Below are positions 36,696 through 48,397 of a DNA stretch of 64,000 nucleotides, in pieces. Below the pieces are notes generated by a model. That model worked only from the letters and a program-made list of their open reading frames with translations, did not search any database and was not told the origin of the DNA. Source of the DNA: Candidatus Eiseniibacteriota bacterium (GTDB lineage: Bacteria > Orphanbacterota > Orphanbacteria > Orphanbacterales > Orphanbacteraceae); assembly GCA_029262235.1 (NCBI GenBank), contig JAJCZU010000002.1, forward strand, positions 372,001 to 436,000. Reading direction: 5' to 3'. The position numbers and the translations under genes are program-made. Positions within the stretch are counted from its first letter, which is position 1. The number at the start of each line of letters is the position of its first letter.

Positions 36696-37943
36696 TTGTC
36701 AGAAGCTGTGAATGATCTGATCCGCCGGGTCGCCGCTGACGCGGCCGCAGAAGTCGATTCCACACCGGAGCCGAAGCTGACCGTCGACGACGTCAAATGG
36801 CCGATCGACGTCAAGATCGGGCGCGGGCTGGAAGGCGCGATTGCGGCGACGAGCAAGATCGGGTATGTGAACGGGCAGAAGGGATGGCTCGTATATGCGG
36901 GCTACAACTGCTTCGACCTGGCCCAGCATTCCACCTATGAGGAAACCGCGTTCCTGCTTCTCTACGGCAAGCTGCCGACTTCGAAAGAGCTCAGCGATTT
37001 TTCGGCCAAACTGGCCTCTCACCGGTCGATCCCCGATAGCGTGATCGATCTGATGCGGCATCTGCCGATTCGCGAGGCGCACCCGATGGGGATCCTGCGG
37101 ACCGCGGTTTCCGCCGCCGGCAATTTCGCGCTGGACGCCGACAATACTTCCGTCGACGCCGAGCGCGAGGTTTCGATCCGTCTGATCGCCGAGTTCCCGA
37201 CCATCGTGGCCGCCATCGGCCGCATGCGTCAGGGCAAGGATCCGGTTCCGCCCGACTCGAACCTGGGCCACGCCGCGAATTTCCTCTATATGCTGAATGG
37301 TGAGGAGCCTGACGTTGACGCCGCCCGCGTCATGGACGTCGCGCTGATTCTCCATGCGGATCACGGCATGAACGCTTCGACGTTCACGACGATGGTCGTG
37401 AACGCGAGCCTCTCCGACATGTACAGCTCCGTGGTGGCCGGCATCGGCAGCCTCAAGGGGAGCCTGCACGGCGGGGCCAACGAGCGGGTCCTCTATCAGC
37501 TCGAGGAGATCGGAAAGCCCGAGAACGCGCTGGCCTGGTTCAAGGAAGCGCAGAAGAACAAGACCAAGGTCATGGGGATGGGGCACCGGGTTTACAAGGC
37601 ATACGATCCGCGTGGCCGGATCTTCGGGCCGCTTGCCGGCCTCGTGAGCGATCGAAATCCTGAAGTGGCCCGTCTCTATGAAGTGGCGAAGGAAGTGGAT
37701 CGCGTCGTCTCGGCTGAGCTCAAGGACAAGAAGATCTACCCGAACGTCGACTTCTACTCCGGGCTGGTATACAAAGCGCTCGGTATCGAGACGCCGCTCT
37801 TTACGCCGATTTTCGCCGTGTCGCGTGTTGCGGGCTGGACGGCTCGCGCTCTCGAACATCTTGCGGACAATCGCCTGTTCCGTCCGCGCGCGATCTACAC
37901 CGGCGAGACCGAGCTCGACTACAAGCCCATCAGCGAACGGTAA
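36696..37943 (+). CDS. gltA: Citrate synthase
   Basis: 415 residues, type II-like citrate synthase condensing acetyl-CoA and oxaloacetate at the entry to the TCA cycle. The catalytic residues are seen: His258 in G-S-L-H-G-G-A-N-E, His297 in M-G-M-G-H-R-V-Y-K and Asp352 in N-V-D-F-Y-S-G. TTG 36696 is chosen, with AAGGA 7 bases upstream; GTG 36708 is the alternative. The N-terminal 25 residues are extra compared with short forms. It is divergent from fusA, and its TAA directly abuts a tandem repeat. Confidence 0.93.
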   Translation: MSEAVNDLIRRVAADAAAEVDSTPEPKLTVDDVKWPIDVKIGRGLEGAIAATSKIGYVNGQKGWLVYAGYNCFDLAQHSTYEETAFLLLYGKLPTSKELSDFSAKLASHRSIPDSVIDLMRHLPIREAHPMGILRTAVSAAGNFALDADNTSVDAEREVSIRLIAEFPTIVAAIGRMRQGKDPVPPDSNLGHAANFLYMLNGEEPDVDAARVMDVALILHADHGMNASTFTTMVVNASLSDMYSSVVAGIGSLKGSLHGGANERVLYQLEEIGKPENALAWFKEAQKNKTKVMGMGHRVYKAYDPRGRIFGPLAGLVSDRNPEVARLYEVAKEVDRVVSAELKDKKIYPNVDFYSGLVYKALGIETPLFTPIFAVSRVAGWTARALEHLADNRLFRPRAIYTGETELDYKPISER

Positions 37944-38011
37944 GGCCGAAGCCCTCATCGGGCCGAAGCCCTCAGCGGGCCGAAGCTCTCAGCGGGCCGA
38001 AGCCCTCAGCG
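37944..38011. repeat. 17-bp tandem repeat, four copies, between gltA and ggt
   Basis: The unit GGCCGAAGCCCTCAGCG recurs at 37944, 37961, 37978 and 37995 with one substitution in copies 1 and 3, and a broken fifth copy follows. Each junction gives GGGC-CGAA-GCCC, a four-pair hairpin with a stable loop. The array begins immediately after the gltA stop, and its last copy contains the stop codon of the convergent ggt gene. Confidence 0.9.
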
Positions 38012-39766
38012 GGCCGTGATCCCTGCGGGTTTGCCACCTTTCCGCGGATCGGATGCTGCCTGATAACCCCCGTCTTTCTCCCGGATCAGCTGCACCACGC
38101 CTACATGCGCGATCTTCTTCGGCGAATGCCCTCGGCTGAACAGGTCCGTGAAGATCGCTCTCTCCCGCAATCCATCTTCGAGTTTCAGCTCGTTCGGCTT
38201 CCACTGGTGATGAAAGCGGGGAGCCGCGACCGCCTCGTCCGCGTCCATGTCGAACAGGAGCACGTTCAGAACGGCCTGCGTCGTCCCTGAGATAATGCGC
38301 GGGCCGCCCGAAGCGCCGGCGATGATCCGCACCTTGCCGTCGCGCAGCACGATGGTCGGCGACATGCTCGAGAGGGGGCGCTTGCCCGGCTCCGGCATGT
38401 TGCGAATCGACTGTTCGAGGCCGAACGCGTTCGCGGTGCCGCGCACGGTCAGGAAGTCGTCCATCTCGTTGTTCAGAAAAAAGTCGTATTCGGGAACGGC
38501 GATGTGCGACCCGAAGTAGAGGTTGATCGTTTCCGTGCAGGCGACGGCATTTCCCTGCGCGTCGATGACCGAAATGTGGCTCGTTCCGCTGTCTTCGGGC
38601 GGGGCGGGGGCGGTTCCGTACGTGTCGATCTTCTTCGTGCTCTTCATGCTGATCGCGCCTGCACGCGCGTCGAGGTAGGGACTCGAAAGAAGATTGTCGA
38701 CGGGCACTTCGACGAAGCGCGCGTCACCGAGCCATGCGGCGCGATCGGCGAACGCGTGCTTCATCGCTTCGGTTACGAGATGAATGTAGTCCGGCGTACC
38801 GGGCTTGCACGCGTCGAGTTCTTCCGAATGGCGATCCAGTATGCCGAGAATCTGCTGCATCGCGATGCCGCCGCTCGATGGAGGGGGCATCGTCAGCAGG
38901 CGGTTTCCGCGGAACGAACCGGCAAGCGGTTTCTCCTGGAACACTTCGTAGTCGGCGAGATCTTCGAGCGTGATGACGCCTCCGCTTTTCGCCACCGCGT
39001 TTCGAACGGCGTCCGCAACCGGCCCCTGATAGAATCCGGCTCGCCCGTTCGTCACGATCAACTCGAGCGCATCGGCCTGCTTCGCGGGCGTGATTCTGTC
39101 GCCTTCCCGGATCGATCCTTCGCGGATGAATTTTTTCCAGAGATGGTAATGCGTCTCTTTTCGTTTCGTGTCTTCGGCGAACCAGGCGCTGACGTCTGCC
39201 GCCACCTGCGCGTAGTGGGCGTCGGCGGGAAAGCCTTCGCGCGCGAGGCGAATGGCCGGAGCAAGCACCGTGGCGCGGTCGAGTGTGCCGTACGTCTCGA
39301 GCGCCGTGAGCAGTCCGGCGACGGATCCAGGCACGCCGACGGCGAGGCCCGAATAGCGGCTCGCGAGGCTGTCGGCGTTCGCCTCCTCGAATGTGGTGGG
39401 GCCCACCGCGGCGGGCGTCGACTCCCTGTAGTCGAGAGCAACTTCGCGGGGTGCGCCGCCACCGCTGCCTGCCATGTGGACGATCATGAAGCCGCCGCCC
39501 CCGATTCCGCAGGAATACGGCCGGACGACCGACAGCGTAAAGCTCGCCGCAACGGCGGCGTCAACGGCGTTCCCCCCGGCTTCCAGGATCTCGCGTCCTG
39601 CCTCGGACGCAAGCGGGTGATCCGCGGCCACGACCCCTCCGTCGTAAATCGGGGCCGCCGCAAAGGCTGCGGGAACGGAAAGCACGAGCGCGACGAAAAG
39701 CAGCAGTGCAACTGAATGTCTGCGGGAGTCCGGAGGCGAGGGGGCATTCGTAAGCGGAATCAACAC
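38006..39766 (-). CDS. ggt: Gamma-glutamyltransferase
   Basis: 586 residues. A signal sequence (about 15-36) targets it to the periplasm. The proenzyme is cut before Thr395 in D-S-G-T-S-H-I-S-V-I-D, the nucleophile of the small subunit. G-G-N-A-V-D-A-A-V-A (near 65-74), R-E-S-T-P (near 113-117) and S-S-M-S-P-T-I-V (near 484) are typical substrate-site elements. It transfers or hydrolyses gamma-glutamyl groups such as those of glutathione. The last codons and stop lie in the 17-bp repeat shared with the gltA end. Confidence 0.92.
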   Translation of the reverse strand: MLIPLTNAPSPPDSRRHSVALLLFVALVLSVPAAFAAAPIYDGGVVAADHPLASEAGREILEAGGNAVDAAVAASFTLSVVRPYSCGIGGGGFMIVHMAGSGGGAPREVALDYRESTPAAVGPTTFEEANADSLASRYSGLAVGVPGSVAGLLTALETYGTLDRATVLAPAIRLAREGFPADAHYAQVAADVSAWFAEDTKRKETHYHLWKKFIREGSIREGDRITPAKQADALELIVTNGRAGFYQGPVADAVRNAVAKSGGVITLEDLADYEVFQEKPLAGSFRGNRLLTMPPPSSGGIAMQQILGILDRHSEELDACKPGTPDYIHLVTEAMKHAFADRAAWLGDARFVEVPVDNLLSSPYLDARAGAISMKSTKKIDTYGTAPAPPEDSGTSHISVIDAQGNAVACTETINLYFGSHIAVPEYDFFLNNEMDDFLTVRGTANAFGLEQSIRNMPEPGKRPLSSMSPTIVLRDGKVRIIAGASGGPRIISGTTQAVLNVLLFDMDADEAVAAPRFHHQWKPNELKLEDGLRERAIFTDLFSRGHSPKKIAHVGVVQLIREKDGGYQAASDPRKGGKPAGITAR

Positions 39767-40334: not shown

Positions 40335-40440
40335 GGGGTCTCCTTTCGTAGAGGACCCAAGACTATCGAAAGCGCCGCGCGCGGTCAATCGAAGCCCGGT
40401 GCGCGTTTCCCGTACGGGAAGGCTGCTCGCGCGAAAATGA

Positions 40441-40469
40441 TTGGACCTCGGATCCCGGACAGGTATCAT
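40441..40469 (+). promoter_or_regulatory. Promoter candidate for the Lon-type protease gene
   Basis: TTGGAC (40441-40446) and TATCAT (40464-40469) are separated by 17 bases. The -10 box is five of six to consensus, the -35 only three of six. The leader would be about 36 bases. Confidence 0.5.
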
Positions 40470-40511: not shown

Positions 40512-43388
40512 ATGGCGAAAAAGAAACTCAAGAAGAAGTCAGCAACCCGCGCCGCCGGCAAGAAGGCCTCTGCGCGCAAGAAAAAGACCACCACAGGCAG
40601 CAAATCCCCCTCTCGCAAAAAAGTAACGCGCAAAAAGGCCGGCGCGAAGAAGAAGGCGACGACGAAGAAGAAGACGTCGACGCGCAAGAAAGCAACGACG
40701 AAGAAGAAGACGTCGACGCGCAAGAAAGCCGCGACGAAGAAGAAGGCGTCGACGCGCAAGAAAGCAACGATGAAGAAGAAGACGTCGACGCGCAAGAAAG
40801 CCGCGACGAAGAAGAAGGCGTCTGCGAAGAAGAAAACGTCCACACGCAAAAAGGTCACGCGCGCCCGTGCCGCCGCGGGTAAGACGCGCGGCAGGACGAA
40901 TAAGAAGTCGTGGAAGCGCGCGCGCCCGCATGCTTCTCTGACGCCAGGCGACCTGAAGAAGAAGTTCGCTTCGGGCAAGTTCGACTTCGACTCCACGAAG
41001 GAGCTGACGCCCCTGAACGACATCATCGGTCAGGACCGCGCGCTGAAGGCCCTCCGTATGGGAGTGCAGCTCAACTCATCCGGCTACAATATCTACGTCA
41101 GCGGCATGGCAGGCACGGGCAAACTCTCCACGGTCAATCGCCTTCTCGATCAGATTCGCCCTGACTGTCCCGCGCTCCGCGATTTCGTTTATGTCTACAA
41201 CTTTGAAAAGTCGAACGAGCCGATTCTGATCGAATTCCCCGCAGGGCAGGGCAAGGCGTTCGCAAGCGAGATGGATCGCGTACTGCAGATGATCCGCGAG
41301 GAGCTTCCGAAGATCCTGCACGGGGAAGGAATTCTCGAGCAGAAGGAGCTTCTGGCGAAACCGTTTCTCGATCAGCAGAAGGAACTGCTCACGAACTTCG
41401 AGAAAGATCTCAAGAGCGCCGGCTTCGAGCTCACGCAGGTGCGTATCGGCAACATGGTGCGCCCCGAAATCGTGATCCCGATCGGCGAGGAGCAGTACCC
41501 GTTCGAGCAGCTCGCGATGATGGTCGAGGTCGGCCAGATGGAACTGGCCGAGGGGATCGATCTCGAAGCGCTGCGCGAAGGGTACGAAACGTTCCGCAAG
41601 CAGATGAAGAAAATCATGAAGGAGTCGCGGCGGCTCAGTGAGACGATGATGAAGCGTCTCGAGAATCTGGATCGCGAAATCGTGAACTTCCTGATCGGCG
41701 ACACGCTGGAAGAACTGATCGAAAAATACGCGACGCATGAAAAGATCGTCACGTATCTGCAGGCTTACAAGGAGAACGTGCTCGAGTACGTTCCCGAACT
41801 GAAGGCCCTGGCCGAGGAGATGGAGGGGGGCGAGCTGCCCGCGCACGCCGACCCCATCATCCCGTACCACGCGAATCTCGTACTCGACAATTCGCGTACG
41901 AAGAAGTGTCCGGTCGTTCTCGAGTCGAACCCCACATACAACAGCGTCTTCGGTTCGATCGAACGACGCATTCTGCCGAACGGGCAGGCGATCACCGACT
42001 TCACGAAGATCACCGCGGGCTCGCTGCTGCAGGCCGACGGCGGGTATCTCGTGTTGAACGCGGCGGACGCGCTCTCGGAACCCGGCTTCTGGAAGACGCT
42101 GAAGCGCATTCTGGTGCACAAACAGCTCGTAATTCAGGGAATCGAAGGGCTGATGCAGCTCTCCACAGTGAACCTGAAGCCGGAACCGATTCACGTGAAC
42201 GTGACGATCATTCTGATCGGAAGCGCCGATCTCTATTTCATGCTGAACCGTTTCGACGAGGACTTCCGCAAGATTTTCAAGGTGCGCGCCGACTTCGACA
42301 ACAACATGCCGATCGGCAAGCAGACGGTCGAACACTATGGCCGCTTTGTGGCACAGATGTCGGAGCGCGAGAAGACGCTGCCGTTCGCCGCGCCCGCCGT
42401 GGCGAAGCTGCTCGAGTTCGGCGTGCGTCTCGCCGGTCGCCAGGACAAGGTGTCCACGCGCTTCGGGGATATCGCGGATGTGGTGCGCGAGTCGAGCTTC
42501 TGGGCCGTCCATCACAAACAGAAGAACGTGGACGTCAAGGCGATCGAGCACACGCTGAAAGAACGCGATGACCGAAGCAATCTGATCGAAGAAAAAGTGC
42601 GCGAGCGTCTGCGGAACGGCGTCGTCCTGCTGGATGCCGAGGGCGGACGCGTGGGGCAGGTCAATGGACTTGCCGTCCTGACGTACGGGCAGCACCGGTT
42701 CGGGATCCCTTCGCGGATCACGGCGTCCGTTGCGCGCGGCAAAGCAGGTATCATCAATATCGAACGGGAATCCCAGCTCTCCGGCAGCAGCCACGACAAG
42801 GGGATGCTCATTCTCGCGGGCTTCCTGCGGGAACAGTTCGCGCAGGAGATCAACCTGTCGCTGACGGCCAGTATCTGCTTCGAGCAGTCGTACGGCGGCG
42901 TCGACGGTGACAGCGCGTCCTCTACGGAGCTCTACGTGCTGCTTTCCGCGATCGGTGAGATTCCGCTGCGCCAGGAGATCGCCATCACGGGTTCCGTGAA
43001 TCAGAAGGGCGACATTCAGGCGATCGGGGGCGTGAACGAAAAGGTCGAGGGGTTCTACAAGTTCTGCAAAGAGCGCGGGCTGACCGGCAAGCAGGGAGCG
43101 ATGATTCCGGCCGCCAACGTCGCGGACCTCATGTTGCACGATGAAGTCGTGCAAGCCGTTCGTCGCAAGAAGTTTCATGTGTATGCGATCGAGCGTATCG
43201 AGCAGGGGATCGAAATTCTGACCGGAGTGCGTGCCGGAACGCGCGGCCGGAACGGGCGCTTCCCGAAAGGCACGGTCTTCGGAGCGGTGGAAGATCGCCT
43301 GCGCGTGCTCGACACGGAGCCGCCGCGCGTCATAAAGAAGATCGTGAAGAAGAAAACGCGACGCAGGAAGAAAGCCGCACGCCGGTAG
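40512..43388 (+). CDS. Lon-type AAA protease (AAA_32 branch) with histone-H1-like basic tails
   Basis: 958 residues. Residues 1-145 are almost only K, T, S, A and R, with a 12-residue repeat, resembling eukaryotic H1 tails and bacterial AlgP/HC2 proteins. The ATPase begins at about 160 (I-I-G-Q-D-R-A-L-K-A-L) with Walker A G-M-A-G-T-G-K at 198-204, followed by Leu where Ser/Thr is usual. A long helical insert (about 255-420) matches this Lon branch (YcbZ-like). The protease domain has Ser801 in D-G-D-S-A-S and Lys844 in G-V-N-E-K-V-E-G, the Lon dyad at its usual 43-residue spacing. The C-terminus is basic again (K-K-I-V-K-K-K-T-R-R-R-K-K). It probably degrades proteins at DNA. ATG 40512 has GGATGG upstream and fits the family. 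Confidence 0.88.
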   Translation: MAKKKLKKKSATRAAGKKASARKKKTTTGSKSPSRKKVTRKKAGAKKKATTKKKTSTRKKATTKKKTSTRKKAATKKKASTRKKATMKKKTSTRKKAATKKKASAKKKTSTRKKVTRARAAAGKTRGRTNKKSWKRARPHASLTPGDLKKKFASGKFDFDSTKELTPLNDIIGQDRALKALRMGVQLNSSGYNIYVSGMAGTGKLSTVNRLLDQIRPDCPALRDFVYVYNFEKSNEPILIEFPAGQGKAFASEMDRVLQMIREELPKILHGEGILEQKELLAKPFLDQQKELLTNFEKDLKSAGFELTQVRIGNMVRPEIVIPIGEEQYPFEQLAMMVEVGQMELAEGIDLEALREGYETFRKQMKKIMKESRRLSETMMKRLENLDREIVNFLIGDTLEELIEKYATHEKIVTYLQAYKENVLEYVPELKALAEEMEGGELPAHADPIIPYHANLVLDNSRTKKCPVVLESNPTYNSVFGSIERRILPNGQAITDFTKITAGSLLQADGGYLVLNAADALSEPGFWKTLKRILVHKQLVIQGIEGLMQLSTVNLKPEPIHVNVTIILIGSADLYFMLNRFDEDFRKIFKVRADFDNNMPIGKQTVEHYGRFVAQMSEREKTLPFAAPAVAKLLEFGVRLAGRQDKVSTRFGDIADVVRESSFWAVHHKQKNVDVKAIEHTLKERDDRSNLIEEKVRERLRNGVVLLDAEGGRVGQVNGLAVLTYGQHRFGIPSRITASVARGKAGIINIERESQLSGSSHDKGMLILAGFLREQFAQEINLSLTASICFEQSYGGVDGDSASSTELYVLLSAIGEIPLRQEIAITGSVNQKGDIQAIGGVNEKVEGFYKFCKERGLTGKQGAMIPAANVADLMLHDEVVQAVRRKKFHVYAIERIEQGIEILTGVRAGTRGRNGRFPKGTVFGAVEDRLRVLDTEPPRVIKKIVKKKTRRRKKAARR
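40656..40820 (+). repeat. 36-bp in-frame tandem repeat inside the Lon-type gene
   Basis: Copies start at 40656, 40692, 40728 and 40764, with a partial fifth at 40800. Each encodes 12 residues, A-T-T-K-K-K-T-S-T-R-K-K with minor changes. Copies two and four, and three and five, are most alike (ACG against GCG at codons 2-3), suggesting duplication of a 72-bp pair. Copy number may vary between strains. Confidence 0.85.
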
Positions 43389-43401: not shown

Positions 43402-43450
43402 CAGAATGAAAAGCGCGCCCCCGTTGTCGAGGGCGCGCTTTTTCGTTCTG
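43402..43450. terminator. Bidirectional intrinsic terminator
   Basis: AAAAGCGCGCCC (43409-43420) pairs with GGGCGCGCTTTT (43431-43442) around a 10-base loop, followed by T on one side and preceded by A on the other. CAGAA and TTCTG extend the stem after a bulge. It serves the Lon-type gene and the convergent aceE. Confidence 0.88.
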
Positions 43451-48294: not shown

Positions 48295-48345
48295 CGCGTT
48301 GCTGCCATGCGTCGTCTGCGCTCGACCGCGCGAGATTCGCGCGCG

Positions 48346-48397
48346 AGTCTAGCCTGCGGGTTTAGCCTGCGAGTTTAGCGTACGAGTTTGAGCGTCG
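48346..48397. repeat. 13-bp imperfect tandem repeat, four copies, at the end of the propeller-protein gene
   Basis: AGTCTAGCCTGCG, GGTTTAGCCTGCG, AGTTTAGCGTACG and AGTTTGAGCGTCG follow each other at 48346, 48359, 48372 and 48385. Copy 3 contains the stop and last two codons of the minus-strand gene, copy 4 the codons before. The array lies between convergent genes. Confidence 0.7.

Follow-up and report, generated by a model that had tools for sequence, protein, structure and literature searches.

What does a long, histone H1-like tail do on a bacterial protease? The question is raised by a gene at positions 40512–43388 (+) of the window, by which we mean the whole stretch of 64,000 nucleotides of Candidatus Eiseniibacteriota DNA analysed here. 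A preliminary description had placed at these coordinates an intact Lon-branch AAA protease joined in frame to about 145 N-terminal residues of almost only Lys, Thr, Ser, Ala and Arg. The coordinates are right, and they enclose an open frame of 958 codons (ATG at 40512, stop codon at 43386–43388), which we refer to below as lonC. The in-frame fusion is also as described. Residues 1–147 include 51 Lys, 15 Arg, 25 Thr, 24 Ala and 13 Ser, only 7 of the 147 residues are hydrophobic, no acidic residue precedes position 147, which holds the first of the whole protein, and tail and core have net charges of +65 and −7, respectively. Among 2,628 stop-free windows of 140 codons in the six frames of the 64 kb, the 10 listed with more than 33% Lys plus Arg all lie over the lonC tail, so the basic stretch is not a product of chance. 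AlphaFold gives a pLDDT of about 31 for residues 1–130, which are predicted to be disordered, and models the core with confidence from residue 131. A second basic tail at the C-terminus, likewise reported before, is present as well (Table 1).

The N-terminal tail is Lys/Ala-rich, acid-free, disordered by prediction and built of repeats, all features of H1-like proteins. When searched alone it has no match in Pfam, and its best profile is NF038053 with a non-significant E value of 5.3; the tails of the related genomes G003 and G005 reach E values of only 0.31 and 0.75 against HC2, short of a profile match. On these searches, the likeness to histone H1 families is one of composition only.

Is the tail actually made? 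An alternative in-frame ATG at 40437 would lengthen lonC, but it sits just 5′ of a sigma-70-like promoter element, the region of which is well kept in the same-genus relative G001, and in G001 a stop codon separates it from the gene; 40512 is therefore the likely real start. In G001 a TAG lies immediately 5′ of the ATG that opens MAKKKLKKK, and in G005 a stop is found one codon 5′ of the lonC ATG. Within residues 1–190 of the window protein the only in-frame start codons are at 1, 87, 183 and 185, so that translation of the conserved core has to include a large portion of the tail; in G001 an internal ATG at residue 69 would in principle allow a tailless form. Codon choice in the tail is that of the core, with AAG:AAA ratios of 38:13 and 45:14, respectively. 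Gene structure in the genomes compared and codon usage in the window gene thus show that the N-terminal tail is translated. The converse possibility, named in the preliminary description, was that the upstream part is untranslated. Both this and a start-codon error are excluded by the upstream stops in relatives and by the next start lying, except for Met87, at 183. The gene is convergent with aceE in the window, and aceE is also the neighbour of lonC in G004 and G005, as judged by its start sequence, which fits vertical inheritance of the locus.

Table 1. Features of the lonC locus, in window coordinates.
Feature	Position	Strand	Basis or remark
Sigma-70-like promoter element TGGACC-16-TATCAT	40442..40469	+	9/12 matches; 0.6 expected by chance in region
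N-terminal H1-like tail, residues 1–146	40512..40949	+	66 Lys/Arg, 0 Asp/Glu; predicted disordered to residue 130
36-bp tandem repeat in tail	40650..40822	+	4.8 copies; 12-residue units such as KKATTKKKTSTR
Folded LonC core, residues 148–935	40953..43316	+	Pfam domains, phmmer, Foldseek, AlphaFold
P-loop-like GMAGTGK, residues 198–204	41103..41123	+	Followed by Leu205, not Ser/Thr
Walker-B-like GGYLVLNA, residues 510–517	42039..42062	+	No Asp/Glu pair; GYLILDA in MtaLonC
Catalytic Ser801	42912..42914	+	Alignment of homologues
Catalytic Lys844	43041..43043	+	Alignment of homologues
LonC insertion 1, CKERGLTG, residues 852–859	43065..43088	+	Consensus CX3GLX(G/E)
Second basic tail, residues 936–958, with stop codon	43317..43388	+	Sequence EPPRVIKKIVKKKTRRRKKAARR
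Hairpin between convergent lonC and aceE	43409..43442	.	Called terminator for the − strand

The core contains the Pfam domains LonC_helical (residues 224–256), AAA_32 (465–596), LonB_AAA-LID (624–688) and Lon_C (797–900). Its best solved structure by sequence is MtaLonC (phmmer, E 3.8e-82), and Foldseek ranks the LonC structure 8k8v first (E 1.1e-53; TM score 0.81 by target length). The LonC group is defined by an insertion of the form CX3GLX(G/E) and by a hydrophobic-X2-Ala-hydrophobic insertion in helix α5 (PMC3391209). The window protein has both, the second as VVQAV, which aligns with VLEAV of MtaLonC. Its score is 23 bits against the LonA equivalog TIGR00763 (cut-off 608) and 145 bits against the archaeal LonB equivalog TIGR00764 (cut-off 517), below the cut-off in both cases. 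By these family models and structural matches, the protease is a LonC and not a standard ATP-driven Lon; the earlier assignment to the Lon branch stands and is to be narrowed to LonC. A plain ATP-dependent Lon is ruled out by the LonA model score, the degenerate ATPase motifs and the top Foldseek match to LonC.

The word intact, applied earlier to the enzyme, suits its protease half only. The Ser801/Lys844 dyad had been correctly located and is present in 101/101 aligned homologues with residues at these positions. The AAA half is degenerate: the P-loop-like motif does lie at 198–204 as reported, with Leu205 behind it, and the Walker B motif reads GYLVLNA. In an alignment of 102 rows, 53 have Arg at the P-loop position and 47 have Lys, and an acidic pair is absent from the common Walker B forms. 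MtaLonC degrades unfolded substrates and lacks ATPase activity (PMC3391209). From the motifs it is likely that nucleotide hydrolysis has been lost in the window LonC, although the P-loop of G004 and G006 is GKT. The near-canonical P-loop here, together with GKT in these two genomes, makes the loss of AAA+ motifs a graded feature.

MtaLonC (Meiothermus taiwanensis; TTC1975; PDB 4fwd and 8k8v) is the closest known system, with the same domain order, fold and Ser/Lys dyad, the same insertions and similarly degenerate Walker motifs, although the window P-loop is nearer to consensus (GTGK) and its Walker B more degenerate (LNA versus LDA). However, MtaLonC has 719 residues and no basic N-terminal tail. 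LonA and LonB share the Lon protease domain with its Ser/Lys dyad but are ATP-driven with canonical AAA+ motifs, LonA having its own N-domain and LonB membrane segments. LonA binds DNA without sequence specificity, and E. coli Lon binds DNA and polyphosphate via the ATPase domain, not via an H1-like tail (PMC7566177). The statement that Lon proteins bind DNA, offered earlier in support of a DNA-bound enzyme, therefore holds for LonA, whereas the window protein is a LonC.

Our survey found a strong LonC match in 118 of 386 genomes. The phylum sample consists of seven genomes, all of one family. Every one of the seven has lonC, and the combination of tail and LonC, which the preliminary description had proposed to look for in related genomes, is found in 7/7, with 32–46% Lys plus Arg in the tail (the tail of G002 was judged by eye from the translation). 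The same description had warned that relatives might begin at about residue 150. This is so outside the phylum, where an N-terminal basic tail occurs in 0/94 LonC homologues with a readable N-terminus and the open frame extends upstream by fewer than 56 codons in 75 of the 94, but not inside it. This comparison shows that, among the sampled genomes, the tail is confined to the phylum and kept throughout it. Searches of an open-access collection of papers found no Lon-family protease previously described with a tail of this kind. Inside the phylum the tails vary in sequence and in length (147, 82, 67, 56, 57, 72 and about 56 residues, the 72-residue tail being that of G003). The same-genus pair formed by the window's genome (G000) and G001 has tails of 147 and 82 residues on cores that are 95% identical. 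The tails of G004 and G006 are the weakest, with a net charge of about +11 and acidic residues present. In G002 (L006 / L170, G002:C27) the core of the lonC gene is interrupted by an in-frame TAG, which is either an assembly error or the mark of a broken gene or pseudogene.

The C-terminal tail has a different distribution. A basic stretch ends LonC in 7/7 genomes of the phylum, and basic C-termini also occur in 19/93 LonC homologues outside it, which leaves the N-terminal tail alone as peculiar to this lineage. LonC homologues of other lineages with C-terminal Lys-rich tails were seen at L016, L021, L069, L074, L107, L112 and L131, and some of these tails are H1-like, for example KKKKKSPKKSKAKKPSAKKK in L107.

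To our knowledge, LonC proteases, though widespread, have no established cellular role. A polycationic tail fixed on the LonC of one lineage suggests that the enzyme acts at nucleic acid. By analogy with the tails of HupB, TopA, AlgP and PhaF, we propose, with a probability of roughly 0.55, that the protein is a phylum-specific LonC variant that is electrostatically tethered to the nucleoid or to other nucleic acid. The preliminary description had likewise supposed that the tail holds the protease on the nucleoid or on polyanions, and of the mechanisms considered this one has the best support. A Lys-rich H1-like tail keeps HupB on the nucleoid, a Lys-rich tail stabilises TopA on DNA, and the H1-like tails found in AlgP and PhaF are believed to anchor granules on the chromosome; more generally, Lys-rich low-complexity regions of prokaryotic proteins have been linked to DNA binding (PMC6821194). 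Each analogy has its differences. AlgP and PhaF likewise fuse Lys-rich, disordered H1-like repeats to another domain and are regarded as nucleoid tethers, but their repeats are C-terminal, Pro-rich and of the KPAA type, whereas the window tail is N-terminal, nearly Pro-free, made of units like KKATTKKKTSTR, and has a protease as its cargo. The lysine repeats of actinobacterial TopA and the mycobacterial HupB tail are alike in being Lys-rich and H1-like and in keeping the protein on DNA, but those proteins act directly on DNA or package it, and carry the tail at the C-terminus. Lys-rich repeats in variable copy number are also present in chlamydial Hc2 and Burkholderia-type H1-like proteins, which are nucleoid proteins that stand alone and have no enzyme domain. 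The window protein adds a protease to the bacterial enzymes that bear H1-like tails.

In the mechanism we envisage, LonC of the phylum's ancestor would have gained a long, disordered, polycationic N-terminal tail beside its short basic C-terminal one, so that each subunit of the ring would bear a charge of about +65 on a flexible tail. The tails would bind nucleic acid of any sequence, chiefly nucleoid DNA and possibly RNA, and would hold the proteolytic chamber at the sites where DNA-associated proteins occur in unfolded or disordered form; the tethered enzyme would degrade these proteins without an unfolding motor. Since the characterised member of the LonC group has no ATPase, clearing of unfolded or disordered proteins is to be expected rather than ATP-driven unfolding. 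LonC, as represented by MtaLonC, prefers hydrophobic residues at P1 of its cleavage sites (PMC3391209), and the scarcity of hydrophobic residues in the tail would spare it from cleavage by its own protease. The weak, partly acidic tails of G004 and G006 count against the tethering model, and RNA, ribosomes, polyphosphate or acidic lipid could equally be bound by a tail of this kind.

Among these ligands, RNA or ribosomes would place the protease on nascent or ribosome-associated proteins. We take YcbZ to be the LonC-type relative in E. coli, where ycbZ is located near rmf. A two-hybrid assay showed an interaction of YcbZ with RNase E (PMC13232886), and ribosomal and RNA-binding proteins also often carry Lys-rich low-complexity regions (PMC6821194). 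However, the tail has no RNA-specific motif, and the phylum's similar tails on a ParB-adjacent protein and on a free-standing H1-like protein fit DNA better; we consider this reading unlikely, though worth keeping in view. Binding of inorganic polyphosphate would instead put the protease on polyphosphate granules under starvation. That AlgP, with its H1-like domain, associates with such granules (PMC9239181), that polyphosphate redirects E. coli Lon (PMC7566177), and that PPK1 and PPK2 are both encoded in the window's genome all speak for it. Neither PPK1 nor PPK2 has a match in G003, G004 and G006, which bear the tail and are 91–100% complete, and polyphosphate is thereby made unlikely as the general ligand or the general reason for the tail; we regard a role in polyphosphate binding alone as improbable.

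A tail could also arise by neutral repeat expansion in a GC-rich lineage and be tolerated without function. The 36-bp tandem repeats that make up part of the tail are what such a process would leave, as is the variation of the tail in length and sequence even within a genus, but the basic composition is maintained throughout the seven genomes. Moreover, 0 of 27 non-synonymous codon differences between the G000 and G001 tails give an acidic residue or a stop in either tail, an outcome to which a rough mutational model assigns 0.8%, with the alignment of the two tails being uncertain. We give this explanation very little credence.

Other proteins of the phylum with comparable Lys-rich stretches speak for the nucleoid-tethered reading of LonC. 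One of them, encoded in G000 at L059:5152–5613 (G000:C3, about 313150–313610), is a free-standing H1-like protein. It has a GTG start and 153 residues, of which 92 are Lys or Arg and none is acidic, consists almost wholly of KKATRKKATKKK-type units, matches nothing in Pfam or NCBIfam, and has relatives in G001, G003 and G005. A zinc-ribbon protein (L060:3969–4946, G000:C4) lies directly downstream of parB (L060:2920–3828) and combines a C4 zinc ribbon, for which Zn_ribbon_9 scores slightly under its cut-off, with a tail, about 215 residues long, built of KKVAAGKK/KKPLKK repeats. It is possibly a chromosome-segregation or nucleoid factor, and proteins resembling it, with Lys-rich tails, are found in G003 and G005. 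In G003 (L159, G003:C20, about 130404–130553) a protein that by eye resembles PEP-utilising enzymes ends in a Lys-rich H1-like tail. These proteins were located by a DNA pattern search that misses the Lon tail itself, so the count of tail-bearing proteins is incomplete and a lower bound. A search of the window's own genome with the Lon tail found only the Lon tail, among the 150 scored of 492 candidates. A shared origin of the Lon tail and the L059 protein is unsupported, BLASTP giving no alignment and shared words being no more frequent than in shuffles; as far as such comparisons reach, the likeness among the phylum's Lys-rich tails is one of composition, and no homology emerged. We raise as a tentative and rather doubtful extension that the H1-like tail is a shared nucleoid address on unrelated proteins of the phylum (the free-standing H1-like protein, the ParB-adjacent zinc-ribbon protein, LonC and, in one genome, the PEP-utilising-enzyme-like protein), with the tailed LonC serving as a dedicated, nucleoid-bound, ATP-free protease.

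Tandem repeats also occur elsewhere in the window. A 17-bp repeat of 4.3 copies (GGCCGAAGCCCTCAGCG) at 37944–38016 is placed between an open reading frame of 419 residues (36702–37958; no Pfam match) and a gamma-glutamyltranspeptidase gene, and a 13-bp repeat of 3.6 copies (GCGAGTTTAGCCT) lies between two open reading frames at 48343–48389.
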